64,000 nucleotides of DNA from Chelatococcus sp. HY11. Its GTDB lineage: Bacteria > Pseudomonadota > Alphaproteobacteria > Rhizobiales > Beijerinckiaceae. This document shows positions 1-26,194 of this stretch, piece after piece (position 1 is the first letter of the stretch; every line of letters begins with the position of its first letter). The translations under genes and the position numbers were made by a program. The notes beneath the pieces are model-generated. The model was not told where the DNA came from, searched no databases, and saw only the letters and a program-made list of their open reading frames with translations. The stretch is taken from contig NZ_JAHBRX010000001.1 of NCBI RefSeq assembly GCF_018398335.1, forward strand, positions 186,001 to 250,000. Direction: 5' to 3'.

Positions 1-1951
1 TGATCAAGGTGTGCTCGCTATTGTCCGCGAAAATGTAGGAGTTGCCATTGAAGGCGAACCAGCCCCAACCATCTTTGTCTGTTAATTCAACGGCCTTGCC
101 ATGGGCCTGATGAAGGCTCGCGGCTGCACTCACGGTATTGATAGCTGATTGGATGTCCCTCAGCAAAGCGAGATCGGCACAATCAGTACGCTTGAGGAAG
201 GGCAATTCGATCCGATCAAATCGCAAAGGATCAAAATCGTAGATCACGGTCATGTTGTCATCGCTCTCGCCTAGAGTCGACTGCGAGGCTTTCTCGATGA
301 CTATACGATCCTTTCCAGAGCCGGTGGAGATGATGTTGTGCCCACCGCCAGCATAAATGGTGTCATCGCCGGATCCCGTTGTGATGAGGTCGGTGCCATT
401 ACCGGTTCTGACGGTGACTTTTTTCGAATCTTGCCAGCAGAAGTCGCTACCATGAGCGCTTCCGTAAAATTCGATTGTCTCTATATCGTCCTTATGCCTC
501 CAATTCTTCTCGTAGTGGAGTACAAGACTCCCTTTGCATCCTGTCGCATCGATGCGACGGAGCGAAGGCGTTGTCGCGTGGGACAGGTTGAGCGCGATGT
601 CGCTTTCGCTAACAATCCTGAGTGTCAGCAGATTGGGAGAATCAAGGCCGATAGGCGCCATTATCCCTTCCCCGATCGTCAATTTCAGCCAGCTCGCCCG
701 GTTGAAATGCAGGTCGCTTGCCTGCCCAGCGATATGGATATCCCGTTCGCTGAACCATGTCTTCGCCGGACGGAAGTCGAGCGTCGTGGAATGGGCCGCG
801 TTGCGGATATGGACGGAGACATCACTATCCAGGTTCGGGACTTTGACCGGGAAGGACAGGCTATCGAGCTTGAGGGTTCTCAACTCTCCAAATCCGTATC
901 CGTTGATCAATGCTCCGTTCGTCTTGGAGGCCGTATTCAATCCGCTCTGTGGGACGACCTCGGCGGGGCGTATCCAGAGCTCTTCGATACTGATGAGCTT
1001 GGCGTCAACGACCGTCTCGCTCATCTCCAGCGACAAAATGTCATGCCCGGCACAGCCATCGACCGTATTTCGGCTTAGTACAGTTGAGTTAATCCGCGGA
1101 CGCTCGGTACTATTCGACACGATATAAGCTGGCGCGCGGATGAAATCACCGAATGGTGTTCCAACGAAATGCTGATGCGAACTGGAGATGACATGTTCTG
1201 TCCAGTTCACGGAATTGGCCGCGCCCTCGGATCCCGCGGCGCGGCAGATCCTTGGGTCATCTGGGGTTTGTGTGAGTGGCGGGGATGTATCGGGAAGACC
1301 CGGAGCTTCGTGGGCCACGGCGTTTTGGGGAGGCTCGGGCGAGCTTTCAGGGACGATGGATGCATTGACGATCTGGTCAGATGGGGGAGCCTCTTGGAGA
1401 GCGTTGGAGAGGCTAGGTGAAGTTTCCTGTGGTTCGTCCGCGACATCGGTTTCGTTGATGTCAGCGGGCATTGGAGGGTGGCGCAGCAGAAGCGAGCCGA
1501 TATAATTTTCCGTGCGGTTGTGCAGCCCATCCAGAAAGACACCGATATAGGGCTTGAGAAAGGTGCTTATCTCTGATGCCTGCGCGAGTTTCGCCAGGAG
1601 TTGCCCCGCCGAGTGCGTTTCAAACTCGGGTCGCCAAGCGTATTCCTTCGAAATGATCCTATTTGAGCCTAGGGCATTCGCAAGAAATTCGTGATAGATC
1701 GAGCGCGGCGTCCAGGAGCCATAAAGCGAATTGAACTCGGGATTGTCGATGAAGCGTGTCGCCACATCGCCGAAGGATTGGCGTCCATCGAGCATGCTGG
1801 TCCAGTAATCCAGCCCAGTGCGGTCCGGTACGCGATTGAACGTGATCTGATAAAGTCTCACGGCCTGAACGGCGCGGCCATGCCAGGCGCTGCTTTGGCT
1901 TCGATCGCTGTCGTCTATTTCTTGTACCATGTTGTCTATGAATTCGGACAT
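1..1951 (-). CDS. Secreted DUF4214 / RTX-like calcium-binding protein, 3' end beyond window
   Basis: The frame is open from an ATG at 1951 to the window edge (650 codons, no stop). An in-frame TAG lies upstream and an AGGGG Shine-Dalgarno sits 5-6 nt before the ATG. Residues about 30-80 (RLYQITFNRVPDRTGLDYW ... FIDNPEF) match the DUF4214 pattern found in alphaproteobacterial exoproteins. A Pro/Ser/Thr-rich linker covers about 165-225. Residues about 512-550 carry four glycine-rich nonapeptides (GNGTDLITT, GSGDDTIYA, GGGHNIIST, GSGKDRIVI), the signature of RTX Ca2+-binding beta-rolls. The visible end (WFAFNGNSYIFADNS) resembles the terminal part of RTX proteins, so probably only a few tens of residues are missing. 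No N-terminal signal peptide is seen, consistent with type I secretion through a C-terminal signal; that route is inference. GC is visibly lower than in the housekeeping genes. Ligand and role are unknown. Confidence 0.8.
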   Translation of the reverse strand, partial: MSEFIDNMVQEIDDSDRSQSSAWHGRAVQAVRLYQITFNRVPDRTGLDYWTSMLDGRQSFGDVATRFIDNPEFNSLYGSWTPRSIYHEFLANALGSNRIISKEYAWRPEFETHSAGQLLAKLAQASEISTFLKPYIGVFLDGLHNRTENYIGSLLLRHPPMPADINETDVADEPQETSPSLSNALQEAPPSDQIVNASIVPESSPEPPQNAVAHEAPGLPDTSPPLTQTPDDPRICRAAGSEGAANSVNWTEHVISSSHQHFVGTPFGDFIRAPAYIVSNSTERPRINSTVLSRNTVDGCAGHDILSLEMSETVVDAKLISIEELWIRPAEVVPQSGLNTASKTNGALINGYGFGELRTLKLDSLSFPVKVPNLDSDVSVHIRNAAHSTTLDFRPAKTWFSERDIHIAGQASDLHFNRASWLKLTIGEGIMAPIGLDSPNLLTLRIVSESDIALNLSHATTPSLRRIDATGCKGSLVLHYEKNWRHKDDIETIEFYGSAHGSDFCWQDSKKVTVRTGNGTDLITTGSGDDTIYAGGGHNIISTGSGKDRIVIEKASQSTLGESDDNMTVIYDFDPLRFDRIELPFLKRTDCADLALLRDIQSAINTVSAAASLHQAHGKAVELTDKDGWGWFAFNGNSYIFADNSEHTLI

Positions 1952-2659: not shown

Positions 2660-4099
2660 TTACGGCAACGTGTAGGCCGTCTTCACGATCGTGTAGAACT
2701 CGGCGGCATAGCGGCCCTGCTCGCGTGGGCCGTAGCTCGAGCCCTTCCGGCCGCCGAACGGCACATGGTAATCGACACCCGCTGTCGGCAGATTGACCAT
2801 GACCATGCCGGCCTCGGCGTTGCGCTTGAAGTGCGAGGCATGTTTCAGGCTGGTGGTGACGATGCCGGACGACAGACCGAACTGCGTGTCGTTGGCGAGC
2901 GCCAGCGCCTCATCATAGTTCTTGGCGCGCGACACCGTCGCTACCGGCCCGAAGATCTCCTCGCGGGAGATGCGCGTTGAGGGATCGACGTCGGTGAACA
3001 GGGCGGGGGCCATGTAGAAGCCGGGCGTCTCACGGTTCAGGAGTTCGCCGCCGTAGACCAGCTTAGCGCCTTCGTCCTTACCGAGCTTGACATAGGAGAG
3101 ATTCTGGTCGAGCTGCGACTGGTCGACGACGGGGCCGATATGCGTGCCGGCCTTGAGCGCGTCATCGATGACAAGGCCCTTCAGGCGCTCGGTGACCGCA
3201 TCGACGAACGTGTCATGGATGCCATCGGTGACGATGAAGCGGGAGGATGCCGTGCAGCGCTGACCCGTGGAGAAATAGGCGCCGTTGACGGCGACCTCAA
3301 CGGCTGTCTTCAGGTCGGCGTCATCAAGCACGACGAGGGGGTTCTTGCCGCCCATTTCGAGCTGGAACTTCTTCATGGTCTCGACGCAGGTGGCGGCCAC
3401 CTGACGGCCGGTCGCGACCGAGCCTGTGAAGCTGATCGCATCGACGTCACGGCTCTTGAGGAGGGCGTTTCCGACCACCGAGCCACGGCCCATGACGAGG
3501 TTGAAGACGCCTGACGGGATGCCAGCGCGCACGATGATTTCCGACAGCGCGTGGGCCGAACCGGGTACGAGGTCGGCCGGCTTGAACACCACCGTGTTGC
3601 CGTAGGCAAGCGCGGGCGCGATCTTCCAGGCGGGGATGGCGATGGGGAAGTTCCACGGCGCGATGATGCCGACGACGCCGACGGGCTCGCGGGTGATCTC
3701 GATATCGATGCCGGGACGCACGGAGGCAAGCTTCTCGCCGGCGAGCCGAAGTGTCTCCTGGGCGAAAAACAGGAAGATCTGGCCGGCGCGGGCTGCCTCG
3801 CCGATGCCCTCGGGCAAGGTCTTGCCTTCCTCGCGCGACAGCAGGCGGCCGAGTTCGTCCTTGCGGGCGAGGATCTCGTCGCCCACCTTCTTCAGGATGT
3901 CATGGCGCTCCTGCGGGGTCGTACGTGACCACGCCGGCAGCGCGGCGCGGGCGGCGGCGATGGCGCGGTCGGCGTCAGCCGCGCTGGCGCGCACGAACTG
4001 TCCAACAATATCACCAGTGTTGGAGGGGTTGATGTCAGGGGCGGCCTCGGTACCGCTGACCCATTCGCCAGCAATGTAATTCTTGGAGTGATCAGTCAT
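2660..4099 (-). CDS. NAD(P)-dependent aldehyde dehydrogenase, 2-oxoglutarate-semialdehyde dehydrogenase-like
   Basis: This 479-residue protein oxidises an aldehyde to a carboxylate using NAD(P). The ALDH superfamily marks are all present: APWNFP near residue 150, FTGSVATG near 225, the general base in LEMGGKNP (E248) and the nucleophile in GQRCTASS (C282). The C-terminus (VNLPTAGVDYHVPFGGRKGSS ... YAAEFYTIVKTAY) resembles ALDHs that convert 2,5-dioxopentanoate to 2-oxoglutarate in sugar, glucarate or hydroxyproline breakdown. Substrate assignment is inference, and a succinate-semialdehyde dehydrogenase remains possible. The ATG at 4099 was chosen because GGAGGA lies 5 nt before it; an alternative start at 4117 has no such site. 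The gene is monocistronic and ends at a good terminator, with no linked pathway genes. Confidence 0.85.
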   Translation of the reverse strand: MTDHSKNYIAGEWVSGTEAAPDINPSNTGDIVGQFVRASAADADRAIAAARAALPAWSRTTPQERHDILKKVGDEILARKDELGRLLSREEGKTLPEGIGEAARAGQIFLFFAQETLRLAGEKLASVRPGIDIEITREPVGVVGIIAPWNFPIAIPAWKIAPALAYGNTVVFKPADLVPGSAHALSEIIVRAGIPSGVFNLVMGRGSVVGNALLKSRDVDAISFTGSVATGRQVAATCVETMKKFQLEMGGKNPLVVLDDADLKTAVEVAVNGAYFSTGQRCTASSRFIVTDGIHDTFVDAVTERLKGLVIDDALKAGTHIGPVVDQSQLDQNLSYVKLGKDEGAKLVYGGELLNRETPGFYMAPALFTDVDPSTRISREEIFGPVATVSRAKNYDEALALANDTQFGLSSGIVTTSLKHASHFKRNAEAGMVMVNLPTAGVDYHVPFGGRKGSSYGPREQGRYAAEFYTIVKTAYTLP

Positions 4100-4354
4100 C
4101 GCTTCCTCCGATTGCACGGCGTCAGGGCCGCTTGCCCCGCCGCAACCTCATGCTAGTCCCTGCAGGCGGATGGGCAGGGCCCGTCCGTCTCCCCCGCACT
4201 AGGGGGAGATGTCATCGATGTTAGCGCTCACTGCCAGGTCCCTGACAATGGTCCCTGACAATGATCGCCGACGCCTTGCTCTAAAGCATCAGGCGACGGC
4301 AAGGGAAGCGCTTTCCGCACACACGGCCTGTGGGCTCCGCAATTCCAGCAATTG

Positions 4355-5536
4355 TCAGCCGGCTGCTGCTGCGATGGAAGGGCGATCCGGTGAACCGGAG
4401 AGGCCCTCGGCGCCGACCCGTGCGCGCGCCCGGGTGCTCGCGCCACCGCCGTCATGCCCGTGCGCATCGACAAGTTCAGCGCGGCGACGGGGCAGGGCGT
4501 GCGGATAATCCGTTTGCAGAAAGGCAAGGAGCTTTTCGCGAACCTCACAGCGCAGGTCCCAGGCCCTTGGCGACGTGCGGGCGCTCATCAAGGCACGCAG
4601 CTTGAGCGTCTCCGTTTCCGCTTCCACGACCTGCAGGTTCACCACGGCGCCATCCCACAGTGGCGAGGCCTTGACGATCTCTTCCAGCTTGGCACGCAAT
4701 TTGTCCACCGGCACGGTGTAGTCGGCATACAGGAAGACGCTGCCAATGATCTGACCGGTGTTGCGTGTCCAGTTCTGGAAGGGCTGCTCGATGAAATAGG
4801 AGAGCGGCACGATCAGACGCCGCCAGTCCCAGATCTTGATGACAACATAGGTTGCGGTGATCTCTTCGATCCATCCCCATTCGCCCTCGACGACCACCGC
4901 GTCGTCGATGCGGATGGGCTGTGTGACGGCAATCTGAATCCCGGCGATCAGGTTGGCGAGCACGGGTCTGGCGGCGAGGCCAACGATCAGGCCGGCCGCG
5001 CCCGCCGAGGCGATGAGGCTGACCCCGTATTGGCGGACGGCGCTGAACGTCATCAGCGCGGCCGCGGTCGTGATGATCACCACCAGGATGTTTACGGTCC
5101 GCTTGAGGATGTTGACCTGCGTGACATGCTTGCGCGCGAGGAGGTTGTCATCGGTGTCGATACGAAAGCGCCGCAGATAGAATTGGGAGGCAAGCTCGAT
5201 CGCGGTGAGCGCGCTCCAGCCGACGAGGACGATGAAAGCGACCAGCAGGATCCTCGCGACGCTCAGCGCGGCGGCCGAGGTTAAGGGCGCCGCCGGGAGC
5301 GCGATGGCGACTGCGAAGACGATCACGGCCAGACGGCGCGGCCCTTCGGTCTGCGTCACCAGTTGCTGGAGGAAGGGATGGCTCGGACCAATCATACGCC
5401 GTAGCAAGCGTTTGACCGTGCGATGGAGGAGCAGGGCGAGCCCTGCGGCGCAGGACAGGAGCAGGATGGCGTAGATCCAGTCAGGGATCCAGAACAGGGT
5501 CTCGCGGGTCGAAGCGAGGAAGGCGCCGAGCGTCAT
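4355..5536 (-). CDS. MscS-family small-conductance mechanosensitive ion channel
   Basis: The product is a 393-residue inner-membrane channel expected to open under hypo-osmotic stress. Several hydrophobic helices cover about residues 15-110 and 150-205. The pore-lining region (SLIASAGAAGLIVGLAARPVLANLIAGIQI, about 172-203) matches MscS TM3, followed by the beta domain (PIRIDDAVVVEGEWGWIEEI) and an alpha/beta region to about 345. The last about 40 residues are an Ala/Gly/Arg-rich tail typical of no domain and may be poorly conserved. GGAG precedes the ATG at 5536. It reads away from ettA. A low-complexity GC-rich stretch separates it from the aldehyde dehydrogenase. Confidence 0.85.
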   Translation of the reverse strand: MTLGAFLASTRETLFWIPDWIYAILLLSCAAGLALLLHRTVKRLLRRMIGPSHPFLQQLVTQTEGPRRLAVIVFAVAIALPAAPLTSAAALSVARILLVAFIVLVGWSALTAIELASQFYLRRFRIDTDDNLLARKHVTQVNILKRTVNILVVIITTAAALMTFSAVRQYGVSLIASAGAAGLIVGLAARPVLANLIAGIQIAVTQPIRIDDAVVVEGEWGWIEEITATYVVIKIWDWRRLIVPLSYFIEQPFQNWTRNTGQIIGSVFLYADYTVPVDKLRAKLEEIVKASPLWDGAVVNLQVVEAETETLKLRALMSARTSPRAWDLRCEVREKLLAFLQTDYPHALPRRRAELVDAHGHDGGGASTRARARVGAEGLSGSPDRPSIAAAAG

Positions 5537-10849: not shown

Positions 10850-11155
10850 GGGGTGTCGGCATGGCAACAGCCGCGTTGCCATACTAGCCAGAAAGCGTAG
10901 GCTTTCTTGCGATTTTGCGCCCATAGACATCCACTTATTTTCAATTGGTTAGATGGGTTCAATCACTTGTCATCCATCGGCGTTCAGGGATATTTAATAC
11001 GCTCAATCTAGGGGGGGCTGCCACTTGCAGGTAATGGGCGATGCTGAGAGCAAAGCGCGCGCCGCGCAGGTACGTCTCAAGGCGCGAAGCGAACCTTACC
11101 GGCGTTGCCTGGATGTAGGTTTGCTTCTTGATCATGCAATTATTGTGCTGATCGC
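10850..11155. other. Intergenic region, left edge of lower-GC islet
   Basis: No gene is seen. Just after the MOSC stop, perfect 8-bp arms ATGGCAAC (10861-10868) and GTTGCCAT (10875-10882) form a hairpin without a T run, a weak terminator candidate. GC drops toward 10930-11155 and remains low through the two following genes. No tRNA, att-like direct repeat or integrase was seen here. Confidence 0.5.
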
Positions 11156-11962
11156 GTGATTCGGCGGTCGATCCCACTCCGTTTTGACAGACTTGCGGAA
11201 AACGGCAGAACTGAGCCGTTACGTATGTCGGTTTTCACCCAGGACGATGCCGAGCACGAGGTGTTCGTGAAAGTGTCATCCGGAAAGGAGTGCAGCGTTG
11301 AAGGTCTGATGAACGAGATGCTTGGGGCGCTGCTTGCATCCGACCTCGGCTTACCGGTCAACGAGCCCTTCTTCGTCGAGCTTGATCCGGATTTTATCCA
11401 GTCGGTCGTGCGCCCCGAAATTCGTACGCGTCTCTCCGCGTCCTGTCCGCTTGCCTTCGCGTCAAAGGCTGCTGGGCAGCAATGGCGGCGTTGGATTGCC
11501 TCGGACAAGATCGTCGAGTCACAAGTCGAACTGGCGCTTGGCGTCATTGCGTTCGATGGCTTCATCGCCAACAATGATCGAGGGCCACGGAACTCCAATC
11601 TTCTCGTGCGAGACCTCGACTGGCGCGTCATTGACCACGAGACCGCCTTCGGATTTCGCACAAAGTTGTTTCCCCGATGCGAGCCTTGGAAACTCGGCAA
11701 CCTTGCCCTTCTGTGCCGGTATGGCCAAGATAGTGAACACATTTTTGCCCGCTTGTTGGCAGGGCGAGACGACCTCGATTTCCCGGCTCTACGCGCCCGG
11801 TGGTCGGCCTTGTCAGATGCTCGTCTCGCCCAGTACGAGGCTACCTTGCCAGAGGAGTGGGAGGTGGTGCGCCCTAATTTGGCCGAGGCAATACGCCATC
11901 TTAAGCAGGTTCGGGACAATATCGACCTGTGCTTGGCCGAACTGAAACGGGTACTGACATGA
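11156..11962 (+). CDS. HipA-like kinase family protein (stand-alone, no HipB)
   Basis: The 268-residue protein has the layout of stand-alone HipA-like kinases (HipA_2-type family). Visible elements are a nucleotide-binding strand with Lys (EVFVKV, K39), an ELGLP-like segment (ASDLGLPVNEPFFVEL, 61-76), the catalytic loop FDGFIANNDRGPRNSNLLV with D141 and N146, and the metal-binding Asp in VIDHETAF (D160). In HipA the equivalent residues phosphorylate a protein substrate such as an aminoacyl-tRNA synthetase; the target here is unknown. No helix-turn-helix antitoxin gene lies next to it. Its stop overlaps the start of the DUF3037 gene (ATGA), so the two form one unit. Start: GTG at 11156, the only start after an in-frame stop at 11129, with a weak ribosome binding site. 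Base composition is lower in GC than flanking genes, suggesting horizontal gain. Confidence 0.78.
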   Translation: MIRRSIPLRFDRLAENGRTEPLRMSVFTQDDAEHEVFVKVSSGKECSVEGLMNEMLGALLASDLGLPVNEPFFVELDPDFIQSVVRPEIRTRLSASCPLAFASKAAGQQWRRWIASDKIVESQVELALGVIAFDGFIANNDRGPRNSNLLVRDLDWRVIDHETAFGFRTKLFPRCEPWKLGNLALLCRYGQDSEHIFARLLAGRDDLDFPALRARWSALSDARLAQYEATLPEEWEVVRPNLAEAIRHLKQVRDNIDLCLAELKRVLT

Positions 11963-12795
11963 CGAGAGAGCCCTACACCTATATGATCCTAAGATACCGC
12001 CACGACCCACTCGCTGGCGAGCTGGTCAACGTCGGTGTCGTGGTTCATGCAGCGAGGAGCGGTTTTCTGGATGCCCTAGTTCGGCGTGCCTACGGCCGCA
12101 TTTCCAAGCTGTTCCCGTCAGTAGATGGAACCACGCTACGTCATGACTTAGTTAACATTGAACGCGCGCTCCAACGGCTAGGTAAAGGTGATGTAGGCGA
12201 CGATATTTTTGATATGCCGAATGCCTCGACCTTCGCCCACCGTGTTCTTGGCAAGGACGACAGCTCTCTGATCTGGAGCGAGATGGGCTCGGGTCTGACG
12301 CGCGACCCGGCCAAAACGCTGGAGGAGCTGCATGCGCGGTTCGTTACCCAGTACGACGAGCAGCCGGCAGTTCGTCGGTCGGATGCCGATATTTGGAGGC
12401 CGTTCCGCGATCTATTGCTGGAGCGCAAGATCGACGCCATCTTTCAGACCAAGAGGATCACGGGCGCACATGACGCAGTCGAGTTCGACTACGCATGGAA
12501 GAACGGAAAATGGCATTGCTTTCAACCGCTGTCCTTTGACCTGACGACTGCTGAGGGCATTCAAGAGAAGGCAGCGCGATGGGTCGGGCACATGGTTGGC
12601 CTGAAGGAGGCAGAGGGTCAGTTCCAACCTTACTTCATCGTAGGCGAGCCGTCGGATCCCGCCCTCATGGCCACCTATGATCGCGCGGTGGAATTCATCC
12701 GTGCAGCGCCCTTGCGGCCAAAAATCGTGTCAGAAAGTAACATCAGCGAGTTTGCCGACGAATTGGCTCACAAGGTTCTTGAACATAAGGGCTGA
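11959..12795 (+). CDS. DUF3037 domain-containing protein, coupled to the HipA-like kinase
   Basis: The 278-residue product begins TREPYTYMILRYRHDPLAGELVNVGVVVHAARSGFLDAL, the hallmark of DUF3037 (an RYxxDxxxGExxNVGVV core). The rest is alpha/beta with a conserved-looking FDYAWKNGKWHCFQPLSFDL segment (about 184-203) that resembles a sheet core. No catalytic motif is evident, and no signal peptide or membrane segment is present. Its ATG at 11959 sits inside the end of the kinase gene, so translation is coupled and stoichiometric production is likely. By position it could be the kinase's partner, substrate or antidote, but the sequence does not say which. Function is unknown. Confidence 0.8.
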   Translation: MTREPYTYMILRYRHDPLAGELVNVGVVVHAARSGFLDALVRRAYGRISKLFPSVDGTTLRHDLVNIERALQRLGKGDVGDDIFDMPNASTFAHRVLGKDDSSLIWSEMGSGLTRDPAKTLEELHARFVTQYDEQPAVRRSDADIWRPFRDLLLERKIDAIFQTKRITGAHDAVEFDYAWKNGKWHCFQPLSFDLTTAEGIQEKAARWVGHMVGLKEAEGQFQPYFIVGEPSDPALMATYDRAVEFIRAAPLRPKIVSESNISEFADELAHKVLEHKG

Positions 12796-12960
12796 CCGCC
12801 CAAACCCGAGTGGATAGGTTCTGGGCTGGCCCGCTGTCTTTCTGCTGCGATAAGGGACCTGCGCTAAGGGTGATCGACCAAAGCGTATTCGAGCTCCCTC
12901 ACCCGTAGGAGTTAGAGCGCTGCGAAGTGCTTAGTGAAAGAGCTTCTTCGCACGATGCCC

Positions 12961-25410: not shown

Positions 25411-25803
<393 letters not shown>

Positions 25804-26194
25804 ACAACCGCCCCATCTACTCCTTCCTCACGCCGATGCCGTCCGCATTGGCGGCATCGCGGGCGCTGCGTTTCTGATTCAAAATGTCGCGCCATCCTGC
25901 TGTACGGGAATCATTTTTCCTCCGGCTGCCCCGCGCGACGCCGCTATCGTTGCCTTCGCGCCATGTGGCGCAGGGGCAAGTTGGGCGGCATCCGGCTAAG
26001 GCTTTGGGATGGCGCCCCACAGCGCGACGCGGGGGCTGACGGGCTTTGGCTAGATCCGCGCGCAAGTCCTTGCCGCGGAATCGCATTTTTGCCCTGTCCG
26101 GCGTGTCGTCACGCGATGACTGGGTGTCGTCCGTGACGACGATACTGATTCAACTATCAGACTCAAGGTGTTGAAAATAAAGATTTTATAACGA
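25804..26194. other. Intergenic region downstream of rnpB
   Basis: No gene is seen. The arms CGATGCCG (25834-25841) and CGGCATCG (25852-25859) form a perfect 8-bp hairpin about 30 nt after the RNA and may end its transcript, although only a short T-rich stretch follows. The remainder (to the kptA stop at 26195) becomes AT-rich near 26150-26190 and has no recognisable motif. Confidence 0.45.

Follow-up and report, generated by a model that had tools for sequence, protein, structure and literature searches.

A recently acquired HipA-type kinase/DUF3037 gene pair in Chelatococcus sp. HY11, probably a HipAD (PDC-M66) defense module

The kinase/DUF3037 islet

Two intact genes, encoding a HipA_2-type kinase and a DUF3037 protein, lie in the same orientation between a MOSC-domain gene upstream and metH downstream in Chelatococcus sp. 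HY11 (Table 1). The kinase gene comes first and its stop codon (TGA, 11960 to 11962) overlaps the start codon of the DUF3037 gene (ATG, 11959 to 11961), confirming the ATGA overlap reported in the initial annotation of this DNA. Because of this overlap and the toxin-first gene order, translation of the two proteins would be coupled. The whole genome carries one copy each of the kinase and DUF3037 families. Also as initially described, no HipB-type gene adjoins the pair, the neighbors being the MOSC gene and metH and the islet itself lacking any helix-turn-helix gene.

Table 1. Features of the islet (positions within the window, i.e., the whole 64-kb stretch of DNA analyzed)
Feature	Position	Strand	Remarks
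Lower-GC islet between MOSC gene and metH	10862-12948		Missing from three congeners
HipA_2-type Ser/Thr kinase, 268 aa	11156-11962	+	GTG start; PDC-M66A; probable toxin/effector
DUF3037 protein, 278 aa	11959-12795	+	PDC-M66B; probable antidote/regulator; ATGA-coupled to kinase gene
N-terminal DUF3037 domain, residues 8-129	11980-12345	+	E21, N24, and G26 invariant in aligned relatives
Partner C-terminal domain, residues 142-278	12382-12792	+	Predicted alpha-beta-beta-beta-alpha-beta fold

The islet has a GC content of 0.563 versus 0.642 for the window, and the two genes (GC 0.57 to 0.58, third-position GC [GC3] of about 0.65) differ from their neighbors (GC3 0.77 to 0.89), bearing out the difference in base composition that had been noted. 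The site is empty in three congeners: their MOSC and metH flanks align at 84 to 92%, the islet DNA finds no match in them, and the gap between the two flanking genes measures only about 185 to 325 bp versus about 2.1 kb here. The DUF3037 protein was found in none of 59 other genomes (3 congeners, 32 from the same family, and 24 from the same order). Wider searches detected DUF3037 in 2 of 385 class-level genomes and in 23 of 398 genomes of the phylum sample, each of these two counts including the source genome. Vertical inheritance in all close relatives, an outcome that the initial annotation had named as speaking against its proposal, is thus not what we observe. Together, these data show that the pair is a recent acquisition.

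Neither an integrase nor a transposase gene, a tRNA, or a flanking repeat was detected at the islet, and insertion as a transposon or integron was rejected given that there is no tRNA and there are no direct or inverted flanking repeats of at least 9 bp. No sizeable open reading frame (ORF) and no recognizable vestige of a restriction-modification gene occurs in the 295 bp preceding the kinase gene. An operator-like palindrome common to relatives was not found upstream of the kinase either, leaving autoregulation unsupported. The pair is solitary among housekeeping genes, outside any defense island.

Elsewhere in the window, a second low-GC stretch at positions 2 to 1951 (minus strand) contains a large ORF cut by the window boundary, in which an RTX calcium-binding repeat and a weak match to DUF4214 were identified. 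Rfam gave a single match across the window, a bacterial class A RNase P RNA at 25412 to 25806 (plus strand).

Family assignment and predicted structures

Pfam assigns the kinase to HipA_2 (PF20613, E = 6.6e-15, above the cut-off and the sole family matched) and its partner to DUF3037 (PF11236, E = 9.1e-17); a search of NCBIfam gave no match. Alignment of 26 kinases shows no variation at E54, D134, N139, D141, R142, and D160, and conservation of at least 90% at K39 and N146. The HipA-type catalytic residues K39, D141, N146, and D160 are all present in the window kinase and had been correctly identified in the initial annotation.

Both proteins match the PADLOC models of PDC-M66 over nearly their full length, the kinase PDC-M66A (E = 4e-57, residues 2 to 267) and the DUF3037 protein PDC-M66B (E = 2.2e-76, residues 5 to 277), with no difference seen at the level of the family models; PDC-M66B was also matched by 21 of 23 aligned DUF3037 proteins. 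Adjacency in the order kinase then DUF3037 and an intact kinase active site are likewise features that the window pair shares with HipAD/PDC-M66. The family is named HipAD or DS-6 in the literature: DS-6, from the DefensePredictor study, was renamed HipAD, for which that study cites Brenes and Laub 2025 (doi 10.1016/j.chom.2025.04.021) as the source paper; in DS-6, an active-site mutation in the kinase abolishes phage defense and AlphaFold3 predicts a kinase-DUF3037 complex (PMC13092281). In the Retron-Sda1 operon, a HipA/DUF3037 pair is sufficient for defense against phage Bas51 when the retron parts are absent; deletion of its kinase abolishes defense and deletion of its DUF3037 gene is toxic (PMC12548924). 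The initial annotation had suggested that DUF3037 might be the antidote in an undescribed defense module. The suggested role agrees with these published tests on relatives, but the PDC-M66 matches and the published HipAD/DS-6 systems dispose of the claim to novelty.

As in HipAD/DS-6, the window locus combines a HipA-type kinase with a DUF3037 protein in which the N-terminal DUF3037 domain is followed by a further C-terminal domain, and lacks HipB. It differs in host and genomic setting, not lying in an Escherichia coli prophage. The C terminus of DS-6B is assigned to DUF1829 (PMC13092281); for that of the window partner, a Pfam search at E = 0.1 did not recover DUF1829, and the resemblance seen is one of predicted fold, to a DUF1828 protein. 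Like the Retron-Sda1 pair, the window locus has its kinase and DUF3037 genes organized as a self-contained toxin/antidote defense unit (PMC12548924), although that pair sits inside a retron operon and no retron genes adjoin the one studied here. HipBA and HipBST have in common with the window kinase the HipA-type fold and active-site residues; unlike them, the window pair has the toxin gene first and possesses neither HipB, HipS, nor a HipA N-terminal domain. HipBA was rejected on the lack of an adjoining HipB helix-turn-helix gene and on kinase size (268 aa with HipA_2 only, versus about 440 aa with the HipA N-terminal domain), and HipBST because the islet holds only two genes, with no separate HipS or HipB.

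The AlphaFold2 model of the kinase (pLDDT 92.5, pTM 0.91) found its best PDB matches in CtkA, PI4K, VPS34, HipT(Lp), and HipA, and a profile search matched actin-fragmin kinase, CtkA, and HipT. CtkA-like compact HipA-fold kinases are the best solved-structure matches by fold, at a low sequence identity of 10 to 12%; we know of no DUF3037 partner for these kinases.

The DUF3037 protein is modeled as two domains (pLDDT 86.7, pTM 0.53), their placement relative to each other being uncertain owing to the low pTM. A sequence search of the PDB returned no match for this protein, and in a Foldseek search of the PDB no match to its model reached E = 0.001. Among the top subthreshold matches were MUS81-EME1, Card1, Can2, BstEII, and EndoMS, all of which are PD-(D/E)XK-type proteins, and against viral models one named match was a DUF1828 protein (E = 8.7e-5). 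The C-terminal half is accordingly predicted to adopt a DUF1828/PD-(D/E)XK-like fold, at low Foldseek significance against the PDB. K181, N182, P190, F193, and D194 are conserved in the alignment of this domain. A PD-(D/E)XK nuclease was rejected as a candidate, the alignment having no conserved D...(D/E)xK, ExK, or DxK motif. Since the nuclease catalytic motif is not conserved, we infer that the domain serves in binding or sensing.

Conserved pairing and the two forms of DUF3037

We examined 28 bacterial loci with a DUF3037 gene (23 in genomes, 4 on plasmids, and 1 in a metagenome-assembled genome). At 27 of these loci the DUF3037 gene is immediately preceded, on the same strand, by a HipA_2-type kinase gene, the two overlapping or nearly so; the exception (L050) has only a 150-aa ORF at that position. 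HipA_2 was assigned by Pfam to 25 of 26 aligned kinases, including that of the window. Among 20 further loci on viral contigs, the upstream ORF was intact in 17, and every one of these matched the kinase profile; two others were truncated at the end of the contig, and L070 had no intact ORF at that position. Pairing at 27/28 bacterial and 17/17 viral-contig loci argues that the association is a real unit, and disposes of the objection, raised at the outset, that the two families might not be consistently paired.

Relatives of the pair thus occur on plasmids and in viral contigs; a search of phage records for relatives of the DUF3037 protein found none. At two viral-contig loci (L066, positions 3054 to 5210, and L069, positions 3906 to 5201) an ATGA overlap joins the pair to the 3′ end of an HsdM or HsdS gene, making it part of a type I restriction-modification operon, and at other loci the two-gene unit stands alone, too. 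Known defense families are present among 102 neighbor genes of the relatives, an observation that, having no matched control, we do not count as enrichment.

A divergent branch of kinase/DUF3037 pairs, 20 to 32% identical among themselves, was also seen (L059 to L062). Their GC content is 3 to 19 points below that of the surroundings, and in L061 a transposase-like gene is directly downstream of the pair.

Nine loci (L041 to L049) encode a single-domain DUF3037 protein of about 125 to 150 aa, paired with HipA_2 kinases of 63% mean identity (seven compared), and the GC content of these pairs equals that of their surroundings (differences of -0.010 to +0.015). At the other 19 loci the partner mostly has two domains and the GC content of the pair is below that of the surroundings in 18. 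In another proteobacterial family, DUF3037 was detected in 32 of 99 genomes, nearly all with scores of the single-domain type, and the single-domain loci examined there have ordinary metabolic neighbors. This suggests a resident, single-domain form of DUF3037 as opposed to a mobile, two-domain form; the resident, nonmobile form may have another role.

Proposed function and alternative explanations

With a probability of roughly 0.8, we regard the pair as a horizontally acquired HipAD (PADLOC PDC-M66) toxin-antitoxin-like defense module in which DUF3037 restrains the kinase. The compact HipA-type kinase would be the toxic effector and the translationally coupled DUF3037 protein would bind it and hold it inactive. 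Phage infection would release the kinase, which would then phosphorylate an essential host factor, and the ensuing growth arrest would limit phage spread. Activity of the window copy, its target, its trigger, and direct kinase-DUF3037 binding are inferred; control of toxicity and kinase-dependent defense have been demonstrated for relatives. Identity within the family is often 15 to 41%, so that the function of the window pair could differ from that of the tested relatives. A tentative and rather doubtful elaboration is that the partner is modular, the DUF3037 domain alone inhibiting the kinase and the mobile forms adding an inactive nuclease-like C-terminal domain as sensor of phage DNA or another trigger.

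The solitary insertion amid housekeeping genes, with no other defense genes, together with the patchy presence of the pair and its plasmid-borne relatives, would also fit a selfish toxin-antitoxin pair that persists mainly by addiction, with no useful phage defense in this host. We consider this unlikely, as two published relatives protect against phage in a kinase-dependent manner (PMC12548924, PMC13092281) and others are coupled to restriction-modification genes. That the kinase instead phosphorylates DUF3037 or another regulator and adjusts metabolism without toxicity, as a resident signaling pair, could be envisaged from the related single-domain proteins with host-like GC and metabolic neighbors in many genomes of another family. 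However, the window pair is a recent low-GC acquisition of the two-domain form that lies below its surroundings in GC at 18/19 loci, and loss of DUF3037 causes toxicity in a relative that was tested (PMC12548924), making such a role very improbable. Least probable of all is that the pair is an inactive leftover from a bigger acquired island whose partner genes or promoter were lost: only about 2.1 kb is left, without mobility genes or flanking repeats and with about 295 bp free of ORFs before the kinase, but both frames are intact, all catalytic residues and the ATGA overlap have been preserved, and two-gene units are self-standing elsewhere.

The locus is therefore real, but the system is largely explained and already described elsewhere in bacteria, and it carries little weight as a discovery. 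What it offers is a new host for a kinase-based phage-defense family validated only recently, and a clean acquisition of a single module with a dated empty site. A compact, intact member of the HipAD family, together with the contrast between one- and two-domain partners, could help to dissect the target of the kinase and the phage trigger.
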